From Rhizobium sp. CB3090 (lineage in GTDB: Bacteria > Pseudomonadota > Alphaproteobacteria > Rhizobiales > Rhizobiaceae), in the NCBI RefSeq assembly GCF_029714285.1, contig NZ_CP121663.1, positions 248,001 to 312,000 on the forward strand: 64,000 bases of DNA. The letters are read 5' to 3'. A program made the position numbers and the translations under genes. Each line of letters opens with the position of its first letter. Position 1 is the stretch's first letter. Of the stretch, positions 431 through 54,176 are shown piece after piece. The notes below the pieces were generated by a model. The model did no database searches and was not told the DNA's origin. It saw only the letters and a list, made by a program, of their open reading frames with translations.

Positions 431-508
431 CAAACGTGATCAAAAATGACAATTTGAAATCATCAGAAATTTAAACAATCCTCTTGCATGCCAATCAAGG
501 GGATTTCG

Positions 509-1318: not shown

Positions 1319-1395
1319 TGGATAAAAATGCCGACCGACGGCAGAGTCAAAGAAGCGGAACATAAAAACAGAATGATCTCAACAAGGGGAACAAA

Positions 1396-2670: not shown

Positions 2671-2762
2671 TTTCAAACGGCGAACTGCTTTCAGTCCATC
2701 AATCCTCGTTTCTTTCTCTTCATTATGACCAAAGAACCGCGCGCGGCGCGGAAGGATGAACC

Positions 2763-38356: not shown

Positions 38357-38418
38357 ATGAGCGCCTCCCCGGCATCAGGCGTCGGGGAGCCACCCGTTGC
38401 ATCATTAAGGATCATCAT

Positions 38419-39348: not shown

Positions 39349-39351
39349 GCC

Positions 39352-40128
39352 ATGCCTGCTTTCGCCGCGAACCTGACAATGATGTTCAACGAATGGTCGT
39401 TCCTCGATCGTTTCGATGCTGCCGCAGAGGCAGGATTCTCCGCTGTCGAATACCTGTTTCCCTATGATTTCAAACCGGAAGATATCCAGGAGCGGCTTCT
39501 CCGCAACGACTTGACCCAGGCACTTTTCAACATGCCTCCGGGTGATTGGGCCGCAGGCATGCGAGGGCTGGCATCCCTGTCGGGCCGCTTCGATGATGTA
39601 GCCGACGGTGTCACCCGCGCGCTCGTCTACGCCGAGGCCACCGGTGTAAAGAACATTCACCTGATGGCTGGATTGGGCGACCGCAGCGATCCGCAGGCGC
39701 AAGTAAACTATCGTCATGCGGTGGAGCATGCTGCTGAACGCCTCGCCGAAAAAGGGCTCAATCTTCTGCTGGAGCCCATCAACGGGCGTAACATGCCCGG
39801 TTATTTCCTCAATGATTTCCATGCGGCCGCGCAGATGATCGGTGAGTTCGGCCTTACCAATGTAAAGCTGCAGTTTGATATCTATCATTGCCAAATCATA
39901 CATGGGGACGTGACGACACGCCTGCGGGAGCTGATGCCGATCAGCGGGCATGTGCAGATCGCCAGCGTGCCGTCGCGTCAGGAGCCCGACAGCGAAGAAC
40001 TCAACTATCCATTCCTGTTTTCCGAGCTCGATCGGCTCGGCTACACGGGATATGTCGGCTGCGAGTATCATCCTCGCGGTCGAACGACGGACGGTTTGGG
40101 CTGGTTCGAACCTTACAAGCGGGGATGA
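39352..40128 (+). CDS. otnI: 2-oxo-tetronate isomerase
   Basis: 258 residues, the Hyi/OtnI xylose-isomerase-like TIM barrel (MFNEWSFLDRFDAAAEAGFSAVEYLFPYDF; LFNMPPGDWAAGMRG; LLEPINGRNMPGYFLND; VKLQFDIYHCQIIHGDV; HVQIASVPSRQEPDSEELNYPFLFSELDRLGYTGYVGCEYHPRG). Known reaction: 2-oxo-tetronate to 3-oxo-tetronate, linking LtnD to the kinase. Its close relative is hydroxypyruvate isomerase, but the operon decides in favour of OtnI. It starts 3 bp after ltnD and ends 3 bp before otnK. Confidence 0.88.
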   Translation: MPAFAANLTMMFNEWSFLDRFDAAAEAGFSAVEYLFPYDFKPEDIQERLLRNDLTQALFNMPPGDWAAGMRGLASLSGRFDDVADGVTRALVYAEATGVKNIHLMAGLGDRSDPQAQVNYRHAVEHAAERLAEKGLNLLLEPINGRNMPGYFLNDFHAAAQMIGEFGLTNVKLQFDIYHCQIIHGDVTTRLRELMPISGHVQIASVPSRQEPDSEELNYPFLFSELDRLGYTGYVGCEYHPRGRTTDGLGWFEPYKRG

Positions 40129-40131
40129 TCG

Positions 40132-41394
40132 ATGGGTATTCTTCTTGGCGTCATAGCTGATGACTTCACCGGCGCAACCGACATCGCCAGCATTCTCGTC
40201 CGCGAAGGCATGCGGACCGTCATGTCGATCGGCCTTCCCACGCCGGCATTCGACGTTCGCGACGCGGATGCTGTCGTCGTTGCGCTAAAATCCCGTACCA
40301 CATCGGCAACGGACGCTGTCACGCAATCGCTCGATGCATTGACGTGGCTACGGACGCACGGCGCCGAGCAGATTTTCTTTAAATACTGCTCGACATTCGA
40401 CTCCACCGCCAAGGGGAATATCGGCCCGGTCGCAGATGCTTTGAGCGATGCGCTCGATGCGAAGGTTGCGGTTGTATGTCCCGCTTTCCCCAAGAACGGG
40501 CGGACGGTGTTCAACGGGCATCTTTTCGTCGGCAGGCAACTGCTACAGGATTCGCCGATGAAGGACCATCCGTTGACGCCAATGCGGCGTTCCGACTTGG
40601 TCGCGCTGATGGCCGAACAGTCCGTCCACGGCGTCGGCCTCGTTCCTCATGAGGTCGTCTCTGCGGGTGAAGGGGCGATCACGGAAGCTTTTGCCAGGAG
40701 CGCAGAGGCTGGACAACGTTACGTCGTCACCGACGCGATCCATGATGATCATCTCCGGGCGATCGGACGTGCCGTGCGAGGCCATAAGCTCGTAACCGGC
40801 GGTTCGGCGCTCGCCATGGGCCTGCCCGCCAATTTCGGCATTTCGCCACGCAAGCCGGCGGAACGCACATCCACATCTTCGGCGTCGCCGCGAACGGCCA
40901 TCCTTGCGGGCAGTTGCTCCGCAGCCACGCGCCAGCAGCTTGCCAGGGCCAGGGCGCTTTGGCCGAGCCGCAGGATCGACCTGGACGCTATAGCCAATCA
41001 GCAGCCCGTCGTCGAAGAGACCCTTTCCTGGGCGCAAAGCCAACCGGCCGATCAACCCGTTGTGATCTACGGTTCCGCCGATCCGGCCGAGGTGGAAGAG
41101 AACCAGGCGAAATACGGGTCCCAGCAGGCGGGTGCCATGATGGAACATACGCTCGCCGCGATCGCGGAAGGACTCGTGGCGAACGGCGTCAGTCGATTGC
41201 TCGTGGCCGGGGGAGAGACGTCCGGTGCGGTGATTTCGGCGCTCAAGGTTCAGGGACTTTCCATCGGCACCGAAATTGCGCCCGGAGTGCCGTGGACGAC
41301 GACGCTTTCGGATCGGCCATTGCAGGTGGCGCTCAAAAGCGGCAATTTTGGTGGTCTCGATTTCTTTGAACGTGCCCTGGACATTTCCGCATGA
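40132..41394 (+). CDS. otnK: 3-oxo-tetronate 4-phosphate-forming kinase (DUF1537)
   Basis: 420 residues of the four-carbon sugar-acid kinase family. The N-terminal substrate domain starts GVIADDFTGATDIASILVREG and includes FFKYCSTFDSTAKGNIGPV and VVCPAFPKNGRTVFNGHLFVG; the C-terminal nucleotide domain carries the GGETSGAVISAL motif near residue 362 and GTEIAPGVPWT. Known reaction: ATP-dependent 4-phosphorylation of 3-oxo-tetronate. Its stop overlaps the otnC start by 4 nt (ATGA), so the two are translationally coupled. Intact; the function is well supported by operon context. Confidence 0.9.
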   Translation: MGILLGVIADDFTGATDIASILVREGMRTVMSIGLPTPAFDVRDADAVVVALKSRTTSATDAVTQSLDALTWLRTHGAEQIFFKYCSTFDSTAKGNIGPVADALSDALDAKVAVVCPAFPKNGRTVFNGHLFVGRQLLQDSPMKDHPLTPMRRSDLVALMAEQSVHGVGLVPHEVVSAGEGAITEAFARSAEAGQRYVVTDAIHDDHLRAIGRAVRGHKLVTGGSALAMGLPANFGISPRKPAERTSTSSASPRTAILAGSCSAATRQQLARARALWPSRRIDLDAIANQQPVVEETLSWAQSQPADQPVVIYGSADPAEVEENQAKYGSQQAGAMMEHTLAAIAEGLVANGVSRLLVAGGETSGAVISALKVQGLSIGTEIAPGVPWTTTLSDRPLQVALKSGNFGGLDFFERALDISA

Positions 41395-42029
41395 GCGAGA
41401 CACGGATTCGCGATCAGATCGCCGGCTATGCAAAATCGCTGTTCGATCGTGGCTTAACGGCTGGATCGACCGGCAACATCAGCGTCCGCATCGATGATGG
41501 ATGGCTGATGACTCCGACCGGATCGTCCATGGGAGCCATCGATCCATCCCGCATCGCCAAGCTGGATGAGGCGGGGCGACACGTTTCGGGTGACGCGCCC
41601 ACCAAGGAAGCGTTTCTTCATCGCGTCATGTACGAGAAGCGGCCGCGCGCGCGGGCAGTCGTTCATCTGCATTCGACACATTCCGTCGCAGTCAGTTGCC
41701 TCTGCGGCCTTGACCACGATGATGTGCTGCCACCGCTTACCGCCTATTATGTCATGCGCGTCGGCCGTCTACCTCTCGTGCCCTACTATCCTCCTGGCGA
41801 CGAAGCCCTGGCACAGGCCGTTGCGGAGCGGACTACCAAGAGCCATGCGGTGCTTCTCGCCAATCATGGCCCGATCGTCGCCGGTACCGATCTTTCCGAC
41901 GCGGTTTATTCCATTGAGGAACTCGAAGAAACGGCCAAGCTGTTCCTGCTGTTGCGCGGCGAGAAAACCAGGCCCTTGAGTTGCGACGAAACGACCGAGC
42001 TGCAGCGGCGCTTCCCCGTCAAGTGTTAG
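41391..42029 (+). CDS. otnC: 3-oxo-tetronate 4-phosphate decarboxylase
   Basis: 212 residues of the class II aldolase/adducin family: GLTAGSTGNISVRIDDGWLMTPTGSSMG, metal ligands in VVHLHSTHSVAVSCL and LLANHGPIVAG, and YYPPGDEALAQAV. Known OtnC reaction: decarboxylation of 3-oxo-tetronate 4-phosphate to dihydroxyacetone phosphate and CO2, feeding glycolysis. It overlaps otnK and is the last gene of the threonate operon; the next gene starts 235 bp later with no transcription terminator recognised, so read-through into the biotin cassette cannot be excluded. Confidence 0.9.
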   Translation: MSETRIRDQIAGYAKSLFDRGLTAGSTGNISVRIDDGWLMTPTGSSMGAIDPSRIAKLDEAGRHVSGDAPTKEAFLHRVMYEKRPRARAVVHLHSTHSVAVSCLCGLDHDDVLPPLTAYYVMRVGRLPLVPYYPPGDEALAQAVAERTTKSHAVLLANHGPIVAGTDLSDAVYSIEELEETAKLFLLLRGEKTRPLSCDETTELQRRFPVKC

Positions 42030-42264: not shown

Positions 42265-42705
42265 ATGGACCTGTCGAAAATAAAGACGCTGATCGATTTT
42301 GTCGGACGATCGAACATTTCCGAGCTGACGGTAACGGAAAAGGACGTCACGGTTCGGATATTCCGGACACCGGATCGGGCGGCCTCCGCTGCTCCCGCGC
42401 AGGTTCCCGAGAAAGCAGCGGCTAGTCCCGTCGCATCCAGCAGCCATGTTTCGGCAAATGCACCGGCCTCGGCCATCACCGTGAAGGCGCCTCTCTTTGG
42501 CGTGCTGCACCGCGCACCGGCACCGAAGGAGGAGCCTTTCGTCAGGGTTGGCGACACAGTGGAGGAGGGGCAGACCCTTTTCATCATTGAAGCAATGAAG
42601 GTCTTCAACAAAATCGTCGCGCCGCATGCCGGCCGCATTCTGCGCCTGACGGATATCGATGGCAGTGAAGTCGAAACCGGCGACGTGCTGGCGGAGATTG
42701 CGTGA
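42265..42705 (+). CDS. Biotin carboxyl carrier protein (AccB-like)
   Basis: 146 residues in the AccB layout: a short helical N-terminus (MDLSKIKTLIDFVGRSNISELTV), an Ala/Pro-rich linker (residues 38-70) and a C-terminal biotinyl domain with the biotinylation motif FIIEAMKVFN, in which Lys112 is the target. The downstream glycines and the DIDGSEVETGDVLAEIA end are normal. The start at 42265 is preferred because the upstream extension to 42187 is non-family. It overlaps the biotin carboxylase start (TGATG). Because KipI/KipA homologues follow instead of AccA/AccD, it probably serves a urea-carboxylase-like enzyme rather than acetyl-CoA carboxylase. Confidence 0.87.
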   Translation: MDLSKIKTLIDFVGRSNISELTVTEKDVTVRIFRTPDRAASAAPAQVPEKAAASPVASSSHVSANAPASAITVKAPLFGVLHRAPAPKEEPFVRVGDTVEEGQTLFIIEAMKVFNKIVAPHAGRILRLTDIDGSEVETGDVLAEIA

Positions 42706-44096
42706 TGGCAGCGCCTTTCGATAAGGTCGGTCTAGCGGAGCGACGTTTCGACACGGTTCTCATCGCCAATCGAGGCGAGATTGCAGTGCGAATTCAGCGC
42801 GCTTGTCGCGAACTTGGTCTGAAGATGGTAGCGATCTGCTCCGAAGCGGACAGGCAGGCAACCTATGGCAAGATGGCCGACCGCCTCCTGTGCATCGGTC
42901 CTTCGAGTGCGGCTCGGAGTTACCTCAATCAGGATGCGATCCTGCTTGCCGCGCGTCTGACCGGGGCCGGCGCCATCCATCCCGGTTACGGTTTTCTGTC
43001 CGAAAACGCTGCTTTCTCTGAAGCTGTCGAGAAGGCCGGTCTCGTCTTTATCGGTCCCGAGGCTTCCTCAATCGCAACCATGGGTGACAAGATATCGGCA
43101 AAGCGGGCGATGATCCTTGCCGGTGTGCCTTGCGTGCCCGGTCCCGACACGGCACTTCCGGATGATCCGGCTTCCATCGAGCGCATCGCGCTGGAAATCG
43201 GCTATCCCGTGATCATAAAGGCCGCCGGCGGCGGGGGCGGAAGAGGCATGCGGGTGGTTCCCGAAGCCGGCTCGCTGCACGAGGCCATTGCTCTGACGCG
43301 TGAGGAAGCGCGACAGGCCTTCGGTTCTCCGGCGCTCTACATGGAGAAGTTTCTCCAACATCCGCGCCATATCGAGATTCAGGTGCTCTGCGATATCTAT
43401 GGCAATGCCATCTGGCTCGGACATCGCGATTGCTCGATGCAGCGTCGGCACCAGAAGGTCGTGGAAGAGGCGCCGGCACTGGGGATTTCACCGGAGATAA
43501 TTAAGCCCGTCGGCATGGCCTGCGTCGAAGCGTGCCGGCAGATCGGCTATCGCGGCGTCGGGACCTTCGAGTTCCTTTACGAGAATGATGCGTTCTATTT
43601 CATCGAAATGAACACGCGCCTGCAGGTCGAGCATCCCGTCACCGAAATGACGAGCGGGGTCGATATTGTTCGCGCGCAGATAGAGGTCGCCCAAGGGTTT
43701 CGCCTGGAAACGGCCCAGGACGATGTAACCTGTATCGGCCATTCCTTCGAATGCCGCATCAATGCCGAGGATCCTGAAAGCTTCCTGCCTTCGGCAGGCA
43801 CGATCTCCGATCTTGCCCTGCCGGAAGGGCTGGGCATCCGGGTCGATACCCATATCCATGCCGGCTATCGAATTTCGCCCTATTATGACTCGCTGATCGC
43901 CAAGCTGATCGTCCACGCGCCCAATCGGGCGGAAGCGATGGTGAAAATGCGCGAGGCGCTTGCCGCCACTCGAATAGAAGGGATTTCTACCAACCTGCCA
44001 TTGCTTCGCGCATTGTTCGATGACGAAGGCTTCGCTCGCGGCGGGACGGATATCCACTACCTGCAGCAATGGCTCCAGCATCGGAGGGCGGCATGA
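42705..44096 (+). CDS. Biotin carboxylase (AccC-like)
   Basis: 463 residues from the ATG at 42705; an overlapping GTG one codon earlier is less likely. It has the whole biotin carboxylase fold: VLIANRGEIAVRIQRACRELG, HPGYGFLSENA, the ATP-grasp glycine loop KAAGGGGGRGMRVV (about residue 172), EKFLQHPRHIEIQV, HRDCSMQRRHQKVVEEAP, FIEMNTRLQVEHPVTEM and a C-terminal INAEDP. It carboxylates biotin using ATP and bicarbonate. The ATGA overlap with the next gene places it inside a coupled cassette. It could be a duplicate AccC, but the genomic company suggests a dedicated one. Confidence 0.9.
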   Translation: MAAPFDKVGLAERRFDTVLIANRGEIAVRIQRACRELGLKMVAICSEADRQATYGKMADRLLCIGPSSAARSYLNQDAILLAARLTGAGAIHPGYGFLSENAAFSEAVEKAGLVFIGPEASSIATMGDKISAKRAMILAGVPCVPGPDTALPDDPASIERIALEIGYPVIIKAAGGGGGRGMRVVPEAGSLHEAIALTREEARQAFGSPALYMEKFLQHPRHIEIQVLCDIYGNAIWLGHRDCSMQRRHQKVVEEAPALGISPEIIKPVGMACVEACRQIGYRGVGTFEFLYENDAFYFIEMNTRLQVEHPVTEMTSGVDIVRAQIEVAQGFRLETAQDDVTCIGHSFECRINAEDPESFLPSAGTISDLALPEGLGIRVDTHIHAGYRISPYYDSLIAKLIVHAPNRAEAMVKMREALAATRIEGISTNLPLLRALFDDEGFARGGTDIHYLQQWLQHRRAA

Positions 44097-44521
44097 GCGC
44101 GATCGACTTCAGCGATCCCTCAACCATCGCGGCGCTTACCGATGCATTGACCACAGCGGGGTTAGACGGTCTGGAAATATCGAGACCCGGCGGCAATCTG
44201 CGCATCGTGGTTTCCAAAGAGTCAGGCGCCCAAGTCAGCCTGACGGGAGACGCGCAGCCAGGCTTCGCCGCGATACCGGCGGCGACAGTCAAAGCGCCGA
44301 TGGCAGGTCAGTTCTATGCGCTGCATCCCTCGGATTCCGAAGGAGGTGAGTGTCTGCCTCGTACTGTTGCCGACCAAGACGTAATCGGCTTCATCCGCAT
44401 CGGTTCCGTATTGCTTCCGATCCCCGCTGGCCGATCCGGTTTGCTGACCAAGCAATTGGTAGAGCCCGACGCCCTGGTCGGATTTGGTGACCCCCTGTTC
44501 GAAATCGAGCCGATATCATGA
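44093..44521 (+). CDS. Biotinyl/lipoyl-like protein without the biotin lysine
   Basis: 142 residues. The N-terminal third (SDPSTIAALTDALTTAGLDGLEISRPGGNLRIVVSK) parallels the AccB N-terminus, and VKAPMAGQFYALHPS (about residue 67) is the first strand of a biotinyl domain. The second half continues GGECLPRTVADQDVIGFIRIGSVLLPIPAGRSGLLTKQL...VGFGDPLFEIEPIS, where the expected EAMKM hairpin is replaced by IGSVLLPIPAG with no lysine. It therefore cannot be biotinylated in the usual way. It overlaps accC before and pxpB after by ATGA junctions, so it is a conserved member of the cassette in position if not in known activity. A structural or docking role is possible. Confidence 0.78.
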   Translation: MSAIDFSDPSTIAALTDALTTAGLDGLEISRPGGNLRIVVSKESGAQVSLTGDAQPGFAAIPAATVKAPMAGQFYALHPSDSEGGECLPRTVADQDVIGFIRIGSVLLPIPAGRSGLLTKQLVEPDALVGFGDPLFEIEPIS

Positions 44522-45225
44522 TTGCTACTTCGAACACTCTTAAGCCATTGCACGAAATCATCCCCGCCATCAAAGGCCGAGCGCGGGTTTCCTGTATTGG
44601 CACTCGATCTTTCCTCCTTGAAGCGCCGGGCGAATTCGATCTGCCCGCACAAAGATGGATCTGGTCCCTGGCGCAAACGGTAAAGGGCTGGGCTGATATT
44701 GCGGAAGTGATCCCCGGCATGACCAATCTGCTGGCGATCTTCAAGGAGACGCCCGAAGATCCCGACATCATTGCGACGCGTCTTCTCGATGCATGGAACA
44801 ACGCCGAGAGCCTCGATCTGGCGGGGAAGGTCATCGAAATCCCCGTTCATTACGGCGGCTCTTACGCAATCGATCTTCCCGCTATCTGCGACTTCTGCGG
44901 ATTGAGTGATCGCGAGGTGGTGCGCATTCACTACGAGGCGAGCTACCGCGTCTTTGCCTTGGGAAGTGCCCCCGGTTTCGGCTACCTGCATGGCCTCGAT
45001 CCGCGCATTTACATGCCGCGCAAGACCGTTCCGTCATTGAGGATGGAGAAAGGCAGCGTAACGATCGGGGGAATGCAGACAGGCGTTGCGATGCTGACAG
45101 GCCCGAACGGCTGGAACTCCCTTGGCCACGCAGAGCTCCAGATGTTCGATCCGACCTCTGCGACACCAGCCCTGCTGGCGCCTGGCGATACCGTACGCTT
45201 CTTACCGGTGAGGATCGAGCTATGA
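44518..45225 (+). CDS. pxpB: PxpB/KipI-like carboxyltransferase subunit (AHS1 domain)
   Basis: 235 residues of the allophanate-hydrolase-subunit-1 (KipI) family: IPVHYGGSYAIDLPAICDFCGLSDREVVRIHYEASYRVFALGSAPGFGYLHGLDPRIYMPRK, SLRMEKGSVTIGGMQTGVAMLTGPNGWNSLG and a terminal LLAPGDTVRFLPV. In urea carboxylase this domain and the KipA domain together form the carboxyltransferase; in PxpABC they act with PxpA to open 5-oxoproline. Overlaps on both sides by ATGA. With biotin carboxylase and carrier next door the carboxyltransferase reading is attractive. The gene symbol reflects homology, not proven oxoprolinase activity. Confidence 0.85.
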   Translation: MIATSNTLKPLHEIIPAIKGRARVSCIGTRSFLLEAPGEFDLPAQRWIWSLAQTVKGWADIAEVIPGMTNLLAIFKETPEDPDIIATRLLDAWNNAESLDLAGKVIEIPVHYGGSYAIDLPAICDFCGLSDREVVRIHYEASYRVFALGSAPGFGYLHGLDPRIYMPRKTVPSLRMEKGSVTIGGMQTGVAMLTGPNGWNSLGHAELQMFDPTSATPALLAPGDTVRFLPVRIEL

Positions 45226-46217
45226 TCGAGATCGTCGAGGCCGGTCCCTTCAACACCGTCCAGGATCTTGGCCGACCTGGCTATCGCGATATCGGGGTTT
45301 CGGCCTGCGGCGCAATGGATCCTCTGGCCGTGAGGATCGGCAATATTCTCGTGGGCAATGAAGACAATGTTGCCGCGATAGAGGTTCAGACCTTTCCGTT
45401 CAAGCTGCGGTTCGAGGCCGGCGGTGTCTTTGCCGTCACGGGTGCGGACGGCCGTCCGATGCTGGACGGTCGGGAGCTGCTTGCCTGGTGTACACATATC
45501 GCCGAGCCGGGTCAGATTCTGGAGCTAAAGCAGCCGCCGAAATTGGCCCGCGCCTATATCGTGTTCCGTGGAGGGCTGGATGTGCCGGTCCTCATGGGTT
45601 CGCGGAGCACTTCGCTGCGCGGCGGCTTTGGCGGAAATGCCGGTCGCCCGCTCGTCAAAGGCGACAGGATTGGATTCGGCACGTCTTCAGATGCGCTGCC
45701 TCTGCCACCAAGCGGCATTGCCGTGGTCGAGCCGGCTGTGGCCTTACGCGATGTCTTTCCGGCTATGATTGACGGCGTGCTGCCGATCCGTGCGATAGCC
45801 GCCGGGGAGCATGAACTCTTCGCCGCCGATGGCGAGGCCTTCTGGAGCCAGACCTGGAGGATATCGTCGAGCAGCGACCGCACCGGTTATCGCCTCTCCG
45901 GCGAACCGATCAAACCGACGGCAACGGTCGAGATGCGCTCCCATGGCATCGTGCCCGGCGTGATCCAGGTTCCGCCCGGCGGCGAGCCGATCATTCAGAT
46001 GAGCGACGCCAATACTGCAGGGGGCTATCCCAAGATTGCAGGCGTCATCGAATGCGATCTTTGGCGTCTCGGGCAAGCGCGGATCGGGAGTCGGCTGCGG
46101 TTCGTGCGCTCGACGCATGCAGAGGCACGCACGGTTGAGCAGGCCATTGCCCGGTATGTCGCGGATGTCAGGCAGACCTCGCAGATGGTCAAGCGCGCTT
46201 TGAAGGCGATGGGCTGA
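45222..46217 (+). CDS. pxpC: PxpC/KipA-like carboxyltransferase subunit (AHS2 domain)
   Basis: 331 residues of the KipA/AHS2 family: IVEAGPFNTVQDLGRPGYRDIGVSACGAMDPLAVRIGNILVGN at the start, FAVTGADG, ARAYIVFRGGLDVPVLMGSRSTSLRGGFGG near residue 110-140, and the C-terminal RTGYRLSGEPI, SHGIVPGVIQVPPGGEPIIQMSDANTAGGYPKIAGVI. It pairs with the PxpB-like protein, whose gene overlaps it by 4 nt. Substrate specificity of such pairs (urea, oxoproline or another amide) cannot be read from the sequence. It is intact and of normal length. Confidence 0.87.
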   Translation: MIEIVEAGPFNTVQDLGRPGYRDIGVSACGAMDPLAVRIGNILVGNEDNVAAIEVQTFPFKLRFEAGGVFAVTGADGRPMLDGRELLAWCTHIAEPGQILELKQPPKLARAYIVFRGGLDVPVLMGSRSTSLRGGFGGNAGRPLVKGDRIGFGTSSDALPLPPSGIAVVEPAVALRDVFPAMIDGVLPIRAIAAGEHELFAADGEAFWSQTWRISSSSDRTGYRLSGEPIKPTATVEMRSHGIVPGVIQVPPGGEPIIQMSDANTAGGYPKIAGVIECDLWRLGQARIGSRLRFVRSTHAEARTVEQAIARYVADVRQTSQMVKRALKAMG

Positions 46218-46248
46218 CGGCAATCGCAAGGATCAAAGGGAGGAAACG

Positions 46249-47016
46249 ATGAAAATCGATCTGAATTCCGACATGGGCGAGGGTTTCGGTCCTTATCGGC
46301 TATGTGATGACGAGGCGATGATGAAGATCGTTTCGTCGGCCAATATCGCCTGTGGTTTTCATGGCGGCGATCCGGACACGATGGCGCGCATGGTGCGTCT
46401 GGCGAAAGAAAACGGCGTCGGCATCGGCGCACATCCGGGCCTGCCGGATCGGTCTGGTTTCGGCCGGCGCGAGCTGCCGTTCCAGCCGGACGAGCTTCGA
46501 CAGCAGATGCTCTATCAGCTTGGCGCATTGATCGCGATCGCCAAAAGCGAAGGCGTGACCGTCGGCCATTTCAGCTTTCATGCCGCCATGGGCAATATGG
46601 TCAATCGTAATGCCGCGCTCGCCGATCTGATGATGGATGCCATTGCCACCGTGGATCCGCGTCTTGTTGTGTTCGTGACACCTGACAGTGTAATCGAAAA
46701 GGCGGCAAAACGCGCGAAACTCAAGACGTTAGCGCTGTTTCTGGCCGATCGCGCCTATGATGCCCGCGGCGCGCTCGTTGCCCGCGGCCTGCCGGGGGCA
46801 TTGGTCAAGGACGAGGCTTCTGTTCGGGCGCGGGTGCGCCGTTTTCTGGCGGACGGAACCGTCGAGGCCATCGATGGCACCACAATCCAGATGCCGGCGA
46901 GATCGATCCTCGTGCACAGCGATACGCCCGGCTCGCTGGAGCTCGCCCGTATCGTCCGCAGCGAAATCGAGGCTTCCGGCGCCACGCTCGCGCCTGCGGC
47001 CGAGCTTGCATCCTGA
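46249..47016 (+). CDS. LamB/YcsF (PxpA) family protein with altered active-site loop
   Basis: 255 residues. The family frame is clear: MKIDLNSDMGEGFG, SSANIACGFHGGDPDTMARMV, GVGIGAHPGLPDRSGFGRR, YQLGALIAIAKSEGV, FLADRAYDARGALVARGLPGALVKD and VHSDTPGSLELARIV. However, the loop that normally reads HVKPHGALYN in PxpA is HFSFHAAMGN here (about residues 105-114), losing the conserved lysine, proline and glycine. The usual partner of PxpBC is this protein, but the change suggests another substrate or mechanism. It starts 31 bp after the KipA gene, preceded by GGGAGGA. Confidence 0.85.
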   Translation: MKIDLNSDMGEGFGPYRLCDDEAMMKIVSSANIACGFHGGDPDTMARMVRLAKENGVGIGAHPGLPDRSGFGRRELPFQPDELRQQMLYQLGALIAIAKSEGVTVGHFSFHAAMGNMVNRNAALADLMMDAIATVDPRLVVFVTPDSVIEKAAKRAKLKTLALFLADRAYDARGALVARGLPGALVKDEASVRARVRRFLADGTVEAIDGTTIQMPARSILVHSDTPGSLELARIVRSEIEASGATLAPAAELAS

Positions 47017-47063
47017 TTTGCTTCCAGCAACCAAGTTTTCCATCTCAGCGAAAGATCACGTCG

Positions 47064-48269
47064 ATGCCTTCCATAGCCGATCGCCTCAAGAACGTCTCCA
47101 TATCCGCTTCTGCTGCCATGACTCAGCGCGCCAGGGAACTGGCCGCCAAGGGCATCAAAGTCGTCAGTCTTTCATCCGGGGAGCCGGACTTTCCAACGCC
47201 TGCCCACGCGATCGAGGCAGCGCATGCCGCAGCGCTGCGCGGCGATACGAAATATCCGCCGATGGACGGCACGCCGGCGCTGAAGGCCGCGATCAGCAGA
47301 AAGTTCAAGCGCGACAACAATCTCGACTACGATGCCAGCCAGATCGTCGTGTCCGGCGGCGGCAAGCAGGTGATCTTCAACGCGATGCTTGCCACCTGCA
47401 ATCCCGGCGACGAGGTCGTCATTCCGACCCCGTCTTGGGTCAGCTACGCCGATATCGTCAAGTTTGCCGGCGGTGTCCCGGTCGCCGTGCCTTGCTTCGA
47501 ACAGGCTGGCTTTAAGCTGCGTCCGGAGGATCTTGAGGCCGCGATCACACCGCGTACGAAATGGCTTATCCTGAACTTCCCGAACAATCCGACGGGTGCT
47601 GCCTGCTCGCGCGCGGAAATGGCTGCCATTGCCGAAGTCATGTTGCGCCATCCGAACGTCTGGATCCTGACTGACGATATCTACGAGCATCTGGTTTATG
47701 GCGGCTTCGAATTCTGCACGATCGCCGATGCGGAGCCCAAGCTTTATGATCGCGTCCTGACGATGAACGGTGTCTCCAAGGCCTATGCCATGACCGGCTG
47801 GCGATTGGGATATTGCGCCAGCGGATCGAAGGAATTGATTGCGGCGATCAGCAACGTCAACGGTCAGAACAGCGGCGGCACGACCACCGTCACACAAGCG
47901 GCGGCCATTGCGGCACTCGACGGGCCTCAAGACCTCCTCAAGGAGCGCGCGGCCATCTACAGGGAAAGGCGCGATTTTGTTCTCGATCAACTGTCGAAGA
48001 TCGAGGGACTGCGCTGCCACAAGCCCGAGGGCGCCTTCTACATCTATCCCAACATGTCCGGTCTGATCGGCAAGACCACCAAGGGCGGACGCAAGATCGA
48101 GACGGATGTCGATTTCGTCATGGCACTTGTGGATGAGCACCACGTCGCGACGGTGCAGGGCGCTGCCTATGGCATGAGCCCCTATTTCCGCATCTCCTAT
48201 GCGACAAGCATGGAAATGCTTGGCGAAGGCTGCGCCCGTATCGCCCAGTTCTGCCGCGATATGCGCTGA
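47064..48269 (+). CDS. Class I aminotransferase (aspartate aminotransferase-like)
   Basis: 401 residues matching the AatA/AspC fold-type I group of rhizobia: VVSLSSGEPDFPTP, KYPPMDGTPALKAAI, SGGGKQVIFNAM, FPNNPTGAACS, LTDDIYEHLVYGG, the PLP lysine in NGVSKAYAMTGWRLGY (about residue 239), and the substrate arginine in FRISYATS near the end. It transfers an amino group between glutamate/aspartate and 2-oxo acids. It follows the PxpA-like gene by 47 bp on the same strand, so it probably belongs to the cassette and could process the amino acid released by it. Exact specificity is uncertain. Confidence 0.86.
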   Translation: MPSIADRLKNVSISASAAMTQRARELAAKGIKVVSLSSGEPDFPTPAHAIEAAHAAALRGDTKYPPMDGTPALKAAISRKFKRDNNLDYDASQIVVSGGGKQVIFNAMLATCNPGDEVVIPTPSWVSYADIVKFAGGVPVAVPCFEQAGFKLRPEDLEAAITPRTKWLILNFPNNPTGAACSRAEMAAIAEVMLRHPNVWILTDDIYEHLVYGGFEFCTIADAEPKLYDRVLTMNGVSKAYAMTGWRLGYCASGSKELIAAISNVNGQNSGGTTTVTQAAAIAALDGPQDLLKERAAIYRERRDFVLDQLSKIEGLRCHKPEGAFYIYPNMSGLIGKTTKGGRKIETDVDFVMALVDEHHVATVQGAAYGMSPYFRISYATSMEMLGEGCARIAQFCRDMR

Positions 48270-48323: not shown

Positions 48324-49229
48324 TCAGAGCTTCAGGTGTTCGGTCAGCTCGACGAGGATGTCCTTGACGGCGAAGGCCGGCTCCGACAGGGAACTCTGAT
48401 CGGATGTGCAAAGCGACAGCGTTTCCTCGATGCGAGGCGTGACCAGCCGGCAGACGAGAGGCTCGCTCGATTCCGACACGATGCGGTCGGCGATCGCCTT
48501 TGGCATGATGGTCGCGCCAAGGCCGGTGCCAACTGCGCGCGCCAGGGTTCTAACGATTTCGACTTCGGCGACGACTTTGAGATTGATCCGGCTGCGCGTG
48601 AAGGCGGCATCGACGGCCCGGCGTACGAAATTGTAAGCCGGCGGCAACAGCATCGGCATTCCATCCAGCGCGCTGACCGGCACGGGCTTCGGGTCTGAAT
48701 CGATCGCGAAATTGCGGTGGGCAACGAAATAGAATTCCTCTCTGAGGATCGGTTCGAACCGTACGCCCTTGATCGGCCCGACGCCGTGGATCAACGCCAT
48801 TTCCAGCCGACCGTTCATGATCATCTGACTGTAGGTCTGACCGACACTCTCCGTCAGATGCAGCAGAATCCCGGGGTGCCTCTTTCTTGTTTCCGCCAGA
48901 AGATCGACCGAAAGAGTGGCGGCACTGCTGAAAGGCACGAGGCCGACAGAAACCCGCCCCGCAAGCGAATTGCCGGCGGCGGCTGCATCCGTCTGTGCCT
49001 GTTCCATCTGGCGGAGAATGATCTGCGCATGCCGGTAGACCGCATGTCCGGCATCGGTCATGCTGACGCCCTGCTGGCTTCGGATCAGGAGTTTCTGGCC
49101 GAAATGCTCCTCGAGCGCCGCCAACTGCTGGCTGAGTGCCGGCTGGGCGAGGTGCAGGATATCGGCAGCCCGCGTGATGCTGCCGCTGTCCACGATGGCG
49201 ATGAAGGATTTGAAACGTCTAATATCCAT
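48324..49229 (-). CDS. LysR family transcriptional regulator
   Basis: 301 residues. The N-terminal helix-turn-helix reads FIAIVDSGSITRAADILHLAQPALSQQLAALEEHFGQKLLIRSQQG; the effector domain includes RVSVGLVPFSSAATLSVDLLAETRKRHPGI, LEMALIHGV and a C-terminal TGLGATIMPKA. It resembles the Nac/CynR-like branch. The start at 49229 is chosen because it places the HTH at residue 10; the frame continues to 49382 with unrelated residues. It is divergent from the SDR-ABC transporter-RraA genes (241 bp between starts), which are its likely targets, and convergent with the aminotransferase gene. Confidence 0.9.
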   Translation of the reverse strand: MDIRRFKSFIAIVDSGSITRAADILHLAQPALSQQLAALEEHFGQKLLIRSQQGVSMTDAGHAVYRHAQIILRQMEQAQTDAAAAGNSLAGRVSVGLVPFSSAATLSVDLLAETRKRHPGILLHLTESVGQTYSQMIMNGRLEMALIHGVGPIKGVRFEPILREEFYFVAHRNFAIDSDPKPVPVSALDGMPMLLPPAYNFVRRAVDAAFTRSRINLKVVAEVEIVRTLARAVGTGLGATIMPKAIADRIVSESSEPLVCRLVTPRIEETLSLCTSDQSSLSEPAFAVKDILVELTEHLKL

Positions 49230-49393
49230 GGCATTGGGTGCTATTCTGTCTTTGCGGGCATGTTTGCAGACGCGCATCCGTTTTGCAACGCGGACTGATG
49301 CGGGAAAGCCATGCGGGCTCCGGCAAAAAGAGGCAATTGCCCGCGCCCGCGACCCGCTCGCCCGTGGCCGGCCAGTCTCCATAAAAGTTACTT

Positions 49394-49470: not shown

Positions 49471-50250
49471 ATGCCATTCTCCGATTACAAGACCGCGTTG
49501 GTCACTGGCGCTTCCTCCGGCATCGGCGCAGCCGTCGTAGAGCGGCTTCGCCGCGAGAACATCGAAGTGCATGCGATTGCTCGCAGCGCCGGTCCGCTGA
49601 AGGAACTGGCGGAACGCACGGGATGCGTTGCACACGTCATCGATGTGACAGATCGCGCGGCCATTGCCGAACTCGCGAACCGCGTTCAGTTCGACATTCT
49701 GATCAACAATGCCGGCGTCGACCGGCCGAAAAAATTCCTTCAAGCCGACGAAGAGGACATAGACCTCCTCGTCGACGTCAATCTCCGCGCCGTCCTGCAT
49801 ATCTGCCGTCTGATCGTGCCGGGAATGGTGGCGCGCGACCGCGGCCATGTCGTCAACGTCTCCTCGATTGCCGGCAACTATAATTTCGGCGGCAACTCCA
49901 CCTATCATGCCGTCAAAGCGGGCGTCGCCATGCTGTCGAACCAGTTGCGTATCGATGCGTTCGGCAAGCGCGTCCGCGTGACCGAAATCTGCCCCGGCCG
50001 CGTCGCGACCGATATTTTCAATCACGTCCATGGCAGCGACCCGAGTGTGCGCGAACGTTTCATCGACGGTTTCGAGCTGCCGCAAGCCGTCGATATCGCA
50101 GAGGCGATCGCCTTTGCTATCGCCGCGCCGGTCGCGGTCAATATCGGCCACATGGAAATCACCCCGACATTGCAGGTGATGGGCGGCCTTCAGACGGCAA
50201 AGCCAGAGACCCCAGCCGCCAAATCCGACGCGGAAGGTGCCAAGCGGTGA
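49471..50250 (+). CDS. Short-chain dehydrogenase/reductase (SDR)
   Basis: 259 residues of the classical SDR type: cofactor loop VTGASSGIGAAVV, LINNAGVD, catalytic serine in VVNVSSIAGNYNFGGNSTYHAVKAGVAML (the Y-x-x-x-K pair follows) and ICPGRVATDIF. It resembles YdfG/serine-dehydrogenase-like enzymes, which oxidise 3-hydroxy acids with NADP. GGGG precedes the ATG. Its stop overlaps the permease start (GTGA), so it is cotranscribed with an amino-acid ABC transporter. The substrate probably derives from the imported compound but is unknown. The Ala-rich C-terminal tail (from about 240) is unusual for the family. Confidence 0.85.
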   Translation: MPFSDYKTALVTGASSGIGAAVVERLRRENIEVHAIARSAGPLKELAERTGCVAHVIDVTDRAAIAELANRVQFDILINNAGVDRPKKFLQADEEDIDLLVDVNLRAVLHICRLIVPGMVARDRGHVVNVSSIAGNYNFGGNSTYHAVKAGVAMLSNQLRIDAFGKRVRVTEICPGRVATDIFNHVHGSDPSVRERFIDGFELPQAVDIAEAIAFAIAAPVAVNIGHMEITPTLQVMGGLQTAKPETPAAKSDAEGAKR

Positions 50251-50954
50251 GCGGGTTCGATCTCTCGGCCATCCTGAGCAATCCGGACTATCTGACGATG
50301 CTCCTGCAGGGCATCGAGATGACTTTCGTCATCTACATCGGCTCCTGGCTGCTTGCCATGACGCTCGCCATTCTGCTTTTTGCGTTCCGCATGTCGCCAC
50401 TTCGTATTGGTGACCCCGTCGTAAAAGCCTACGTCTCCTATCACCGCAATGTTCCGACCCTTGTGCAGCTCATGCTGTGGTATTTCGGGATCTATTCGCT
50501 GATGCCACAAGGCGCGACCGACTGGCTCGCCAACCATAATGCCGAGGCCATATTCGCAGTCATCGGGCTGGGTTTGTGTCAAGCGGCCTATTTCAGTGAG
50601 GACTTGCGTTCCGGCCTTCGTTCCGTCGGTCCAGGGCAGATGGAGGCCGCCAAAGCTCTCGGGCATGGCTACCTCTCCGCAATGCGTTTCGTGATCATGC
50701 CCCAGGGCCTGCGTAATGCACTGCCGCCACTGATCAATCACAGTGTATCCCTTTTCAAAAACAGCAGTCTCGCTATCGTCGTCGGTGCGTCTGAGCTTAC
50801 GCATGCGATCAAGGAGATCGACAACGTCAGTTTCCGCACCTTTGAGATCTACCTGATCGGCACCGTAATCTATCTGTTCTTCTCCCTCATCATCATGGCG
50901 TTGGGTGCATATCTCTCCATGCGATCCGATCCGGTGCGGAGGGCGCGGGCATGA
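50247..50954 (+). CDS. Polar amino-acid ABC transporter permease (first)
   Basis: 235 residues starting at GTG, overlapping the dehydrogenase stop (GTGA). HisM/GltJ-type permease with about five membrane spans and the EAA loop QMEAAKALGHGYLSAMRFVIMPQGLRNALPPLINHSVSLFKNSSLAIVVG. The N-terminal MLLQGIEMTFVIYIGSWLLAMTLAILL is typical. It works at the inner membrane with the second permease, the ATPase at 51706 and the binding protein at 52607. The transported amino acid or analogue is not predictable. Confidence 0.9.
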   Translation: MSGFDLSAILSNPDYLTMLLQGIEMTFVIYIGSWLLAMTLAILLFAFRMSPLRIGDPVVKAYVSYHRNVPTLVQLMLWYFGIYSLMPQGATDWLANHNAEAIFAVIGLGLCQAAYFSEDLRSGLRSVGPGQMEAAKALGHGYLSAMRFVIMPQGLRNALPPLINHSVSLFKNSSLAIVVGASELTHAIKEIDNVSFRTFEIYLIGTVIYLFFSLIIMALGAYLSMRSDPVRRARA

Positions 50955-51709
50955 TCCAGGACGTCATCAATATCATCCATGACTATTGGCTTCTGCTGCT
51001 GATCGGCCAGTATCCCAACGGCCCGCTGGGCGGTCTTGCCAATACGCTTATCCTTTCCGCACTCGCCATCGCGCTCGCATTCCCGGTCAGCATCCTGCTT
51101 GCAATGGCGCGCCTTTCCAAATGGGCGGTCCTCAGATGGCCGGTGACCGGTCTGGTCTACATCACACGCGGCGTTCCGCTGCTGATGCTGATCCTTTGGT
51201 CCTATTTCCTCGTTCCGTTATGGACCGGCGCCGACGTGCCAAGTTTCCTGATCATGCTGGTAACGCTTGTCATCTACGAAGGCGCGTTCTTGAGCGAGGT
51301 CGTGCGGGCCGGCATTGTTTCACTGGGCCAAGGGCAAATGGACGCCGCCAGGGCCCTCGGCCATAGTTATATCGGAGCGATGCGCTTCGTGATCCTGCCG
51401 CAGGCGCTCTACAATATGATCCCGAGCATGATTTCGACGTTCGTCTCGACGATCAAGGACACGACGCTTGGTTATGTCATCAACGTGCCGGATCTCACGT
51501 TCGCGGCAAGCCAGGTGAACAACCAACTTCTCTCGCAGCCCTTCCAGGTCTTCTTCATCCTCGCCGCGGTCTACTATCTCCTTTGCTGGAGCCTTACCCA
51601 AATCGCCAACAGCGTGGAAAAGCGAATTACTCGCCGACGCGCGGGGCCGAGCAAAGCTCGCCTTCGCACCGATGTCGTTCCTCTCAAAACATTTAGGGAG
51701 CAGCTATGA
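50951..51709 (+). CDS. Polar amino-acid ABC transporter permease (second)
   Basis: 252 residues, overlapping the first permease by ATGA. It shows GltK/HisQ-type features: [32 protein letters not shown], the conserved [20 protein letters not shown], and the EAA loop [37 protein letters not shown] followed by [11 protein letters not shown] basic cytoplasmic tail ([16 protein letters not shown]) ends the protein. It forms the heterodimeric channel with the upstream permease. Its stop overlaps the ATPase start. Confidence 0.9.
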
Positions 51710-52473
51710 GCATCCCAGTTCCCGGGCCGCAGGACCCTCAGGAGATCCGTCTTCACGAGGTCTGCAAGAGCTACGGTCATTACCAGGTGTTGAAGAACAT
51801 CAACGCCGATGTCAGCCGCGGCGAGGTCGTCGTCATTTGTGGGCCGTCCGGTTCCGGCAAGTCCACCCTGATCCGTACGGTCAACAGGCTGGAGGAGATC
51901 AACAGCGGTTCGATAGATTTCGAAGGCAAGAATATTCATGCTCCGATGAGCGGTTCTGAGCTAAACCGGCTACGTAGCCGGATCGGTTTCGTTTTTCAGA
52001 ATTTCAACCTGTTTCCCCATTTGTCTGTCATCGACAACATTTCCATGTCGCCAATCCGGGTGAAGGGCGTGCCGGCGAACGTCGCGCGCGACAAGGCCGT
52101 TGCGCTGCTTCATCGCGTCGGCCTTGCCGACAAGGCAAATGCCTATCCCGGTCAGCTTTCGGGTGGTCAGCAGCAGCGTGTGGCCATCGCCCGCGCGCTC
52201 GCGATGGAGCCGCCTGTCATGCTCTTTGATGAACCGACGAGCGCGCTCGATCCGGAGATGGTGGGCGAGGTGCTGAGCGTCATGAAAAGCCTGGCGGCCG
52301 AAGGAATGACCATGCTCTGCGTCACGCATGAAATGGGCTTTGCCCGCGATGTGGCCGACCGCATTTGGTTCATCGATGCTGGTGAGATCCTGGAGACCGC
52401 TCCGCCGGAAGAGTTCTTTAAAAATCCCCGCCATCCCAGAGCTCAGCGCTTTCTTTCCGATCTGCGCCACTAG
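51706..52473 (+). CDS. Amino-acid ABC transporter ATP-binding protein
   Basis: 255 residues of the GlnQ/HisP type: Walker [21 protein letters not shown]-loop [13 protein letters not shown], signature [19 protein letters not shown], Walker [21 protein letters not shown] and H-loop [14 protein letters not shown]. It overlaps the second permease by ATGA. Right after its stop comes a RIME-like repeat (52473-52574), then the binding-protein gene, so the repeat interrupts the operon between ATPase and binding protein and may affect their relative expression. Confidence 0.92.
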
Positions 52474-52606: not shown

Positions 52607-53443
52607 ATGAACTGGAAATGCTTCACTATACCGCTGGCAGTCGCGGGCATCGCAGTCGCCATGCCGGCCAAGGCCGATCAACTCGACACGATCATGTCGG
52701 CAAAGACACTGCGCTGCGCGACCTATGCGGATGTCCCGCCGTTTTCCTCTCCTGATCCCAAGACCCGCGAAATGGTTGGGTTCGACGTCGATCTGTGCAA
52801 GGCGATCGCAAACGAACTCGGCGTGAAAGCCGAGATCAAGCCGATTTCGGTCGAGGCGCGCGTCCCTGAAGTCAAGCTTGGCCGCGTCGACATCACGGTC
52901 GCCAACCTTGCCTACACGCTGAGCCGCGCCGAGCAGATCCAGTTCAGCGATCCCTATTATGTTGCCAAGGAAATGCTCATTGTTCCCGCCGATGACGCCG
53001 GCAAGAAGAAGGCCGATTACGAAGGCCAGCGTCTTGCCTCGACCAAGGGCTCGACCTCGGAACTGGCGATCAAGCTCAACAAATCCGACCCGCTCACCTT
53101 CCAGGATACGGGATCTGCCTACCTCGCCGTTCAGCAGGGCAAGGCGCGCGGCATGGTGGCGAACACCATGACGACGACGCTGCTGGTCAACCAGTCGCAG
53201 ACCAAGGGCAAGAAAATGCGCATGATCGACGAGCCGATGCTGTTGGAGCCGGTCGGTGTCGGCATGCAGAAGGACCAGCCTGCGCTAACCGCAAAGATCA
53301 ACGCAATCCTGCACAAGCTCGACGACTCCGGCGAGATCAACAAGATCTGGGACAAATGGCTTGGCCCGAACACCGAATACAAGATGACCCGCAACGAGAA
53401 GGTCGTACCGATCTCCGAATTGAAGTTCGACCCGATCCCCTAA
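52607..53443 (+). CDS. Periplasmic amino-acid-binding protein of the ABC transporter
   Basis: 278 residues with a signal peptide (residues 1-23, ending AMPAKA). Family-3 binding-protein motifs are present: LRCATYADVPPFSSPDPKTREMVGFDVDLCKAIANELGVKAE, RVDITVANLAYTLSRAEQIQFSDPYYVAKEML and NAILHKLDDSGEINKIWDKWLG. It delivers the substrate to the permeases at 50247 and 50951. The motif around residue 84 reads ISVEARVPEVKLGR instead of the common NRIPLLQSGK, so the ligand may be atypical. AAGGAGA precedes the ATG. It is separated from the ATPase gene by a mosaic repeat and from the RraA-like gene by a hairpin. Confidence 0.9.
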   Translation: MNWKCFTIPLAVAGIAVAMPAKADQLDTIMSAKTLRCATYADVPPFSSPDPKTREMVGFDVDLCKAIANELGVKAEIKPISVEARVPEVKLGRVDITVANLAYTLSRAEQIQFSDPYYVAKEMLIVPADDAGKKKADYEGQRLASTKGSTSELAIKLNKSDPLTFQDTGSAYLAVQQGKARGMVANTMTTTLLVNQSQTKGKKMRMIDEPMLLEPVGVGMQKDQPALTAKINAILHKLDDSGEINKIWDKWLGPNTEYKMTRNEKVVPISELKFDPIP

Positions 53444-53501: not shown

Positions 53502-54176
53502 ATGACCCACATCAAAGATATCGCCGAACGACCGAGCAAAGCAGACATCGAGGCGCTCTCCAAATTTTCGCCCGCAACGATCCATGAGGCCCAGGGCCGC
53601 CGCGGCGCACTGTCCTCACGCTTGAAGCCCGTGGACTATCGCATGAAGCTTTGCGGCCCGGCCTTCACGGTGAAGTGCGCGCCGCGCGACAACATCATGC
53701 TGCAGCTTGCGATCAACTACGCAAGGCCGGGCGACATCATCGTCGTCTCCGCGGGCGAATATGAGGAAGCGGGCTCCTTCGGCGATGTTCTGGCCAATGC
53801 CTGCCTCGCCAAGGGCATCGGCGGATTGGTGACCGATACTGGCGTGCGCGATACGCTTCAGTTGCGGCAACTCGGATTTCCGGTCTTCTCGCTCAGCGTC
53901 TGCATCAAAGGCACGGTCAAGGAGACGATCGCAGCGGTCAACGATCCTGTCATCGTCGGCGGAGAGATCATCAATCCCGGCGATATCGTCGTCGGCGACG
54001 CGGACGGTCTCGTTGTCGTTCGTAGAGGAGACGCGCAAGAGGCAGCGCGGCTTTCGCAGGCGCGTGAGGATGCCGAGGCAGGCTATATCGAAGCCTACAA
54101 GCAAGGCAAATCGGTCATCGAAGTCAGCAAGCTTGAACCAGTGCTGAAAGCCAAGGGTCTCATCGTCGATATCTGA
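53502..54176 (+). CDS. RraA/HMG-aldolase family protein
   Basis: 224 residues of the RraA-like fold shared by 4-hydroxy-4-methyl-2-oxoglutarate aldolases and oxaloacetate decarboxylases: FSPATIHEAQGRRGALSSRLKPV, GPAFTVKCAPRDNIMLQLAINYARPGDIIVV, FGDVLANACLAKGIGGLVTDTGVRDT (the metal and substrate loop) and INPGDIVVGDADGLVVVRRGDA. Where many members have VxDGxxRD this one has VTDTGVRD. It follows the binding protein by 58 bp and closes the SDR-ABC set, so an aldol cleavage or decarboxylation of the imported compound's product is inferred. True RraA (RNase E regulator) is unlikely given context and length. Confidence 0.82.
   Translation: MTHIKDIAERPSKADIEALSKFSPATIHEAQGRRGALSSRLKPVDYRMKLCGPAFTVKCAPRDNIMLQLAINYARPGDIIVVSAGEYEEAGSFGDVLANACLAKGIGGLVTDTGVRDTLQLRQLGFPVFSLSVCIKGTVKETIAAVNDPVIVGGEIINPGDIVVGDADGLVVVRRGDAQEAARLSQAREDAEAGYIEAYKQGKSVIEVSKLEPVLKAKGLIVDI

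Follow-up and report, generated by a model that had tools for sequence, protein, structure and literature searches.

A predicted split biotin-dependent carboxylase-hydrolase with a lysine-less carrier protein in a conserved catabolic module of Rhizobium

Do adjoining genes of biotin-dependent carboxylation and of the PxpABC 5-oxoprolinase families encode one enzyme, or two that happen to be neighbours? The question is raised by a 64,000-nucleotide stretch of Rhizobium sp. CB3090 (contig NZ_CP121663.1, positions 248,001 to 312,000; hereafter the window), in which genes for a biotin carboxyl carrier protein (BCCP) and a biotin carboxylase (BC) are followed by one for a second BCCP-like protein (CAR2) and then by KipI/PxpB-like, KipA/PxpC-like and PxpA genes. 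Our answer, to which we assign a probability of about 60%, is that these genes together specify a split carboxylase-hydrolase, dependent on biotin and acting on a cyclic amide, within a catabolic module.

Reading frames and junctions were taken directly from the window DNA; the host genome is 6.49 Mb in size and of Rhizobium type. The BCCP and BC genes meet in TGATG at 42705, and ATGA overlaps of 4 nt join BC to CAR2 at 44093, CAR2 to KipI at 44518 and KipI to KipA at 45222, these four overlaps (one TGATG, three of 4 nt) coupling five genes translationally. Gaps of 31 nt and 47 nt separate KipA from PxpA and PxpA from an aminotransferase gene. DNA and family scans thus agree with the original prediction, made from the sequence alone, of six families in a row, five of them joined by such overlaps, with an aminotransferase next. 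BCCP has its predicted biotin site at Lys112 (codon 42598-42600) in EAMKVF, and BC was judged intact, with three BC Pfam domains and every motif looked for. The KipI-KipA pair provides a carboxyltransferase (CT) of known fold. Members of the PxpA, PxpB and PxpC families occur together, NF003814, TIGR00370 and TIGR00724 all scoring over cut-off, while KipA reached 274 against the PxpC equivalog NF045499, below its cut-off of 500. PF03746 was matched in the host genome by the window PxpA only.

We compared BC and BCCP with the acetyl-CoA carboxylase subunits of the host, whose genome has six BC matches. An AccC-type gene beside AccB elsewhere in the genome was treated as the housekeeping pair, and a urea carboxylase-type protein (near G000:C2:1639459-1641978) has the genome's only other CT_C_D match. 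The cassette BC shares 53% identity with the AccC-type BC and 44% with the BC of the urea carboxylase-type protein; the cassette BCCP is 33% identical to AccB. A BC tree with 55 rows placed 31 window-type cassette BCs in one clade (SH-like approximate likelihood-ratio test, SH-aLRT, 99) and six AccC rows in a separate clade (100) that is its nearest neighbour; the BCs of urea carboxylases, of the fused type and of type II loci each fell in a clade of their own (this tree and the KipI-KipA tree described below were quick searches with several long rows). Given the separate cassette clade, we rejected a recent duplicate of the acetyl-CoA carboxylase gene. These comparisons support the view that BC and carrier belong with KipI, KipA and PxpA rather than being recent acetyl-CoA carboxylase duplicates.

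Related loci were gathered by a PxpA-based scan, from which the best 80 of 594 loci by PxpA similarity were kept; having been chosen in this way, they contain PxpA by construction. Sixty-six with complete KipI and KipA were labelled (18 BIO, 7 fused, 5 carrier only, 27 none, 9 cut). The remaining 14 were set aside, although BC is visible in three of them (L148, L149, L155). Some labels were set by hand: L186 and L192 as "none", L114 as "BIO" (BC 7.1 kb from KipIA), and L104, L115, L119, L125 and L134 as "carrier, no BC". In a tree of 97 rows with both KipI and KipA, drawn from scan loci, compared genomes and plasmids, the window pair fell in a 37-row clade (support 99). BC is present in 33 of its rows and a lysine-bearing carrier in 34, the carrier exceptions being a Martelella locus (L111) and two loci whose contigs start inside BC (L102, L113). 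Together with the BC tree, these counts side with the original prediction in separating BC and carrier from acetyl-CoA carboxylase duplicates.

Several observations weigh against a biotin-dependent enzyme. Three rows of the clade (L104, L115, L119) show a carrier without a BC in the stretch. The Martelella locus has only short BC and BCCP fragments (5644-5968) along with intact KipI, KipA and PxpA and a CAR2 match, and may have lost its biotin genes. The sister row of the clade is E. coli PxpBC, and the E. coli operon has no BC. Two Arthrobacter loci (L124, L165) combine relatives of the aminotransferase, SDR oxidoreductase, aldolase and LysR regulator with PxpABC, again with no BC in the stretch, so that the pathway may not need a dedicated one. 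Finally, the column of the CT base lysine of urea carboxylase (Lys1605 of KlUA; PMC5770610) holds Arg in 37/37 rows of the clade, including the conserved Arg168 of the window KipI (codon 45019-45021), as it does in 31/32 rows without BC; it is Lys throughout only in the type II KipI (3/3) and urea carboxylases (4/4). With Arg in the window clade the column is not diagnostic, and we discarded the base lysine as proof of CT chemistry; the urea carboxylase-like CT of the original prediction is without it here. Note that the K of "PRKTVP" is not the equivalent of Lys1605, as the alignment places it one column off (K 24, R 13 of 37 in that next column).

Position 150 of KipI, which adjoins the conserved PGF loop, is Ser in the window (codon 44965-44967) and in 35 of the 37 clade rows, with Val in L115 and Ala in L119. 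E. coli has Phe there, as do 28 of the remaining 31 rows that lack BC and the BC-linked rows of the fused, type II and Firmicutes groups, while urea carboxylases have Asp. Ala is found in both Arthrobacter loci and in one Microbacterium locus whose downstream module is weaker. A small residue at this position follows the module more than it follows biotin, the exception being L119, which lacks the module; this tracking suggests that the substrate is not plain 5-oxoproline. Outside the clade, one other locus (L178) has an aminotransferase match above 300 bits.

The third protein of the cassette, CAR2, had been described as carrier-like. Its predicted BCCP fold is intact and the biotinyl lysine is always replaced: among 41 aligned CAR2 proteins none has Lys in the column of the biotin site or in the two columns to either side, which leaves a lysine-less pseudo-carrier and no second working carrier. 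The segment following the former biotin site is mostly conserved (Pro in 38 of 41), and CAR2 is kept in 37/37 rows of the KipI-KipA clade, across alpha-, beta- and gammaproteobacteria. It matched no Pfam family and, in NCBIfam, a single carrier model weakly (NF005457, 22 bits, cut-off 87); its closest named relative is from Rhizobium paranaense (85%). Biotin cannot be attached to CAR2 in the usual manner, and the protein is most likely a scaffold or gate of the BC-BCCP-CT assembly, by analogy with the BADC proteins of plants. According to the available part of a 2025 paper, these are BCCP-like proteins that have lost the lysine motif, accompany BC and BCCP in the plastid acetyl-CoA carboxylase, and are unique to the plant enzyme (PMC11926652); the likeness of CAR2, a BCCP fold without the biotinyl lysine, is one of description and not of sequence comparison. 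The surroundings of CAR2 vary: in Agrobacterium vitis CG78 (L104, 5356-6277) it directly follows BCCP and there is no BC, and in Allorhizobium ampelinum S4 (L184, 6065-8294) BC sits between the two.

The conserved unit extends past the six genes to 54176 and comprises 14 genes in all (Table 1), and the aminotransferase, which the original prediction had linked to the cassette, is part of the same module. A CAR2 query gave matches in 25 of 61 genomes, 18 clear (E < 1e-13) and seven weak. The 18, which include the host, all belong to the genus of the window, and the 14-gene set was complete in 17/17 of the others. In Bradyrhizobium guangxiense and Microvirga terrae the same families occur in a different order, with CAR2 between KipA and PxpA. 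This recurrence and rearrangement indicate that the grouping is more than chance. The set is also found on annotated plasmids of R. leguminosarum, Allorhizobium ampelinum and Sinorhizobium numidicum. Further away, where module scoring is bounded by the length of the stretches examined, three Acetobacteraceae loci (L105, L106, L110) have the aminotransferase and SDR, with ABC genes and aldolase not seen; L107 and L108 lack the aldolase, and L116 and L117 the ABC genes. The module is reduced to the aminotransferase and a distant aldolase in L046 and L111 and to the aminotransferase in L115, and L119 has no module gene.

Among the seven weak matches, L046 is a window-type operon with another gene order, L042-L045 and L047 are AccB-AccC-type loci and L048 is a type II pxp locus. 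Because five of the seven were thus of AccB-AccC type, the CAR2 profile was limited to known loci, with the lysine position checked; as a genome-wide marker it was rejected, having matched 268 of 289 class genomes. Beyond the window type, none of 103 loci reached the threshold of the CAR2 hidden Markov model, which was built from an alignment (A3) that includes many of the tested loci; those outside it include L100, L102, L103, L111, L113, L115-L117, L184, L185 and L212. A search of viral contigs for CAR2 found none. In a class-level survey with an even draw of 144 genomes, PxpA was over cut-off in 34, and 38 of the 41 places outside the host genome were examined (two contig-edge fragments and one below-cut-off match were dropped). 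KipI-KipA occurred with BC in 10 of the 38 loci, with a carrier only in one and with neither in 21, and in six the pair was not in the stretch (BC being present in one of these). CAR2 was found in a single locus (L212). With 1/38 for CAR2 against 10/38 BC-linked, it is the window type that is uncommon in the class, not BC-linked pxp loci as such.

Table 1. Genes of the conserved 14-gene unit, in window coordinates
Feature	Position	Strand	Family matches and remarks
BCCP, AccB-type biotin carboxyl carrier, 146 aa	42265..42705	+	PF00364; EAMKVF motif
BC, biotin carboxylase	42705..44096	+	PF00289/02786/02785; glycine-rich loop, QRRHQK, EMNTRLQVEHPVTE motifs
CAR2, BCCP-fold protein without biotinyl lysine	44093..44521	+	Ser105 (codon 44405-44407) at the lysine's place
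KipI/PxpB-like, carboxyltransferase subdomain C/D	44518..45225	+	PF02682; TIGR00370 170.6 bits, cut-off 145.6
KipA/PxpC-like, carboxyltransferase subdomain A/B	45222..46217	+	PF02626; TIGR00724 285.8, cut-off 230.2
PxpA (LamB/YcsF), predicted ring-opening hydrolase	46249..47016	+	PF03746; NF003814 333, cut-off 226
PLP aminotransferase	47064..48269	+	PF00155; nearest "aspartate transaminase" model NF004769 518.5 bits, below cut-off 617
LysR-type regulator, NAC-type	48324..49232	-	NF008410 325 bits, cut-off 309; start placed where NAC match begins
SDR oxidoreductase	49471..50250	+	nearest YdfG-type 3-hydroxy acid dehydrogenase, 136 bits, cut-off 411
Polar amino-acid ABC transporter permease 1	50247..50954	+	
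Polar amino-acid ABC transporter permease 2	50951..51709	+	
ABC transporter ATPase	51706..52473	+	
ABC transporter substrate-binding protein	52607..53443	+	
RraA-type 4-carboxy-4-hydroxy-2-oxoadipate aldolase / oxaloacetate decarboxylase family	53502..54176	+	NF006731 219.8 bits, cut-off 179

The gene set, its conservation, the KipIA and BC clades and the predicted fold and missing lysine of CAR2 are results of computation; from them we infer biotin dependence and carboxylation of a ring nitrogen, as follows. BirA would biotinylate BCCP at Lys112, BC would carboxylate the biotin at the expense of ATP and bicarbonate, and KipI-KipA would pass the carboxyl group to the lactam nitrogen, by analogy with the urea carboxylase CT acting on urea. 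PxpA would then hydrolyse the activated lactam and the resulting N-carboxy amino acid would lose CO2, for a net cost of one ATP per ring. The ABC transporter would import the substrate, the aminotransferase and aldolase would degrade the acidic amino acid left after ring opening, and control of the whole set would fall to the NAC-type LysR protein. That the product might be an acidic amino acid is suggested by the families of these last two enzymes; our guess for the substrate is a gamma-substituted 5-oxoproline. Of the split carboxylase first proposed for this locus, the belonging together of the cassette is supported; a second working carrier and the claim of uniqueness are not, and the base lysine of urea carboxylase is not conserved in the clade.

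The same machine could instead act on plain 5-oxoproline, as a biotin-dependent 5-oxoprolinase whose product, glutamate, is transaminated. Indeed, PxpA, KipI and KipA belong to the families of the known 5-oxoprolinase, the single PxpA of the host genome is that of the window, and accB and accC occur in the pxp operons of S. aureus and L. plantarum, in the latter together with a putative hydro-lyase. Glutamate, however, requires neither Ser150, which is Phe in E. coli PxpB and most others, nor a downstream aldolase. Moreover, 5-oxoproline may already be covered, since the host genome has five Hydantoinase_B matches, one of them HyuA-fused in the window beside a putative hydro-lyase. We consider plain 5-oxoproline a genuine possibility, though a minority one. 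Alternatively, the locus might encode an ordinary phosphorylating PxpABC, with BC, BCCP and CAR2 as a neighbouring second half of acetyl-CoA carboxylase serving fatty-acid synthesis. The BC is barely over the AccC model (626.7 against a cut-off of 626.5), its clade is nearest to AccC, Arg168 is shared with BC-free PxpB, and in the available part of one paper the accBC genes of an operon of this kind are assigned to fatty-acid synthesis (PMC11315280). This arrangement is nevertheless unlikely: no accA or accD was named among the scanned genes of the unit, a separate AccB-AccC-type pair exists elsewhere in the genome, the cassette BC clade is distinct and accompanies the KipIA clade, and five genes from BCCP to KipA are translationally coupled.

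It is also conceivable that the carboxylated compound is itself the product, made from a nitrogen compound other than a lactam (one resembling urea, guanidine or an amide), PxpA acting on something else. The urea carboxylase CT fold of KipIA would fit this, but PxpA lies beside KipIA also in window-type loci found via CAR2 or KipA rather than PxpA, and the host already encodes a urea carboxylase-type protein; we regard this as very unlikely. Least probable of all, CAR2 could be a functionless, decaying duplicate of BCCP. Its lost lysine, its weak scores against BCCP families and its divergence in some loci (53 bits in L111, 67 in L116, 55 in L117) would be expected of decay, but not its retention in every row of the clade over three proteobacterial classes, nor the conserved segment past the former biotin site and the intact predicted fold.

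A broader proposal, bolder and rather doubtful, would be that PxpABC in general works by biotin-dependent lactam N-carboxylation and not by phosphorylation. BC-less systems would then borrow the housekeeping BC and carrier, and the window operon would own its BC, BCCP and BADC-like subunit and have moved to a new lactam. Two findings count for it: Pfam scans of PxpA, KipI and KipA gave no known ATP-binding domain, and Arg168 is common to pairs with and without BC. Against it, early work on a Pseudomonas 5-oxoprolinase reportedly described a substrate-dependent ATPase component, with biotin unmentioned. Also in its favour, the phosphorylation step of PxpB/PxpC is described as assumed in the available part of PMC13274462. 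Borrowing in trans is hinted at by PDB entry 9YX5, which, as far as its available description goes, holds the M. smegmatis long-chain acyl-CoA carboxylase with MSMEG_0435-0436, that is, a KipI-KipA pair and a BC-BCCP subunit (AccA3) in one complex. The entry supports a KipIA-BC partnership, and in view of it the two Arthrobacter loci may use AccA3 in trans. It differs from the window in that the partner is an acyl-CoA carboxylase subunit, with no dedicated BC or BCCP.

How does the proposed carboxylase-hydrolase compare with known systems? Like urea carboxylase/urea amidolyase (K. lactis, 3VA7 and 5I8I), it has BC, BCCP and the KipA-KipI CT fold, with amide N-carboxylation as the likely chemistry. 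Urea carboxylase, however, is a single BC-CT-BCCP chain, whereas the cassette subunits are separate genes, with a BC nearer AccC, Arg at the Lys1605 column, an extra lysine-less carrier, and PxpA where the allophanate hydrolase partner would be expected. PxpABC 5-oxoprolinase (E. coli YbgJKL, B. subtilis) shares three families and the fold, but BC, BCCP, CAR2 and the aminotransferase module are all missing from the E. coli stretch, and KipI has Phe at position 150. Closer in composition are the six-gene S. aureus operon, which includes pxpB, pxpC, pxpA, accB and accC and whose accBC are treated as fatty-acid genes (PMC11315280, available in part, the only source for this operon here), and the pxp-acc operon of an L. 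plantarum plasmid: both have PxpA, PxpB and PxpC with BCCP and BC. In the L. plantarum locus no lysine-less carrier was found, and the neighbours are an NRAMP transporter and a putative hydro-lyase.

BC-linked pxp operons are thus known in several architectures, of which the window operon is the variant with a lysine-less carrier, and with the S. aureus operon in print and a KipIA-carboxylase complex in the PDB the earlier statement that no such composition is known was too strong. In the type II order (L048, L193, L195), PxpA, a small BCCP, BC, a long KipI and KipA follow one another; it lies elsewhere in the KipI-KipA tree and, with Lys at the base column of KipI, is perhaps closest to true urea-carboxylase-like chemistry. 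Fused KipI-KipA with BC, mostly a fused BC-BCCP, forms one clade of eight rows (98), and the Firmicutes BC-linked loci (L118, L152, L182) fall outside the window clade. Among the papers listed by literature searches (titles and abstract starts, with few subscription journals covered), none dealt with a biotin-dependent lactam hydrolase composed in this way, or with a BADC-like protein from bacteria, and the available parts of PMC10448178 and PMC11077971 held nothing decisive.

If the proposed reading is correct, lactams would join the substrates of biotin enzymes, bacteria would have a counterpart of BADC, and the accB/accC annotation of such operons would be corrected. The locus would also offer a direct test of how PxpABC spends ATP and of whether the free-standing halves of the urea carboxylase CT can work alongside other BCs, which the available part of PMC3199775 left undecided in 2011.

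Some further observations concern related loci and the surroundings of the unit. Type II members include loci of Ruegeria TM1040 and R. leguminosarum pRL1. Fused-type loci with PxpA (L130, L142, L150, L160, L169, L171, L174, L190) come from Actinomycetota and Pseudomonadota; one, on a Klebsiella plasmid, is accompanied by an NRAMP transporter and a putative hydro-lyase. The KipA or KipI-KipA frames of L125 and L134 extend through a BCCP domain that has its lysine, and no BC was found in these stretches. In two of the three Acetobacteraceae loci (L105, L106) an aspartate ammonia-lyase-type gene adjoins the cassette (NF008909, run on L105 only: 650 bits, cut-off 510), and EamA and MFS transporter genes follow PxpA in 3/3; the lyase-type gene fits aspartate or nitrogen release, and neighbours of this kind do not settle the substrate.

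Directly upstream of the unit in the window, at 39352-42029, genes for 2-oxo-tetronate isomerase, 3-oxo-tetronate kinase and 3-oxo-tetronate 4-phosphate decarboxylase, all over NCBIfam cut-offs, form a tetronate catabolism operon. The 3-oxo-tetronate genes (38311-42029) were rejected as members of the unit, the kinase being present in none of the other loci scored. Near the start of the window, 488-6407 is a separate candidate locus for an ATP-dependent lactamase or 5-oxoprolinase: it encodes a putative hydro-lyase (NF003969, 419.9 bits, cut-off 324), an MFS transporter and, at 2763-6407, a fused protein of HyuA-HyuB type with 1214 aa.

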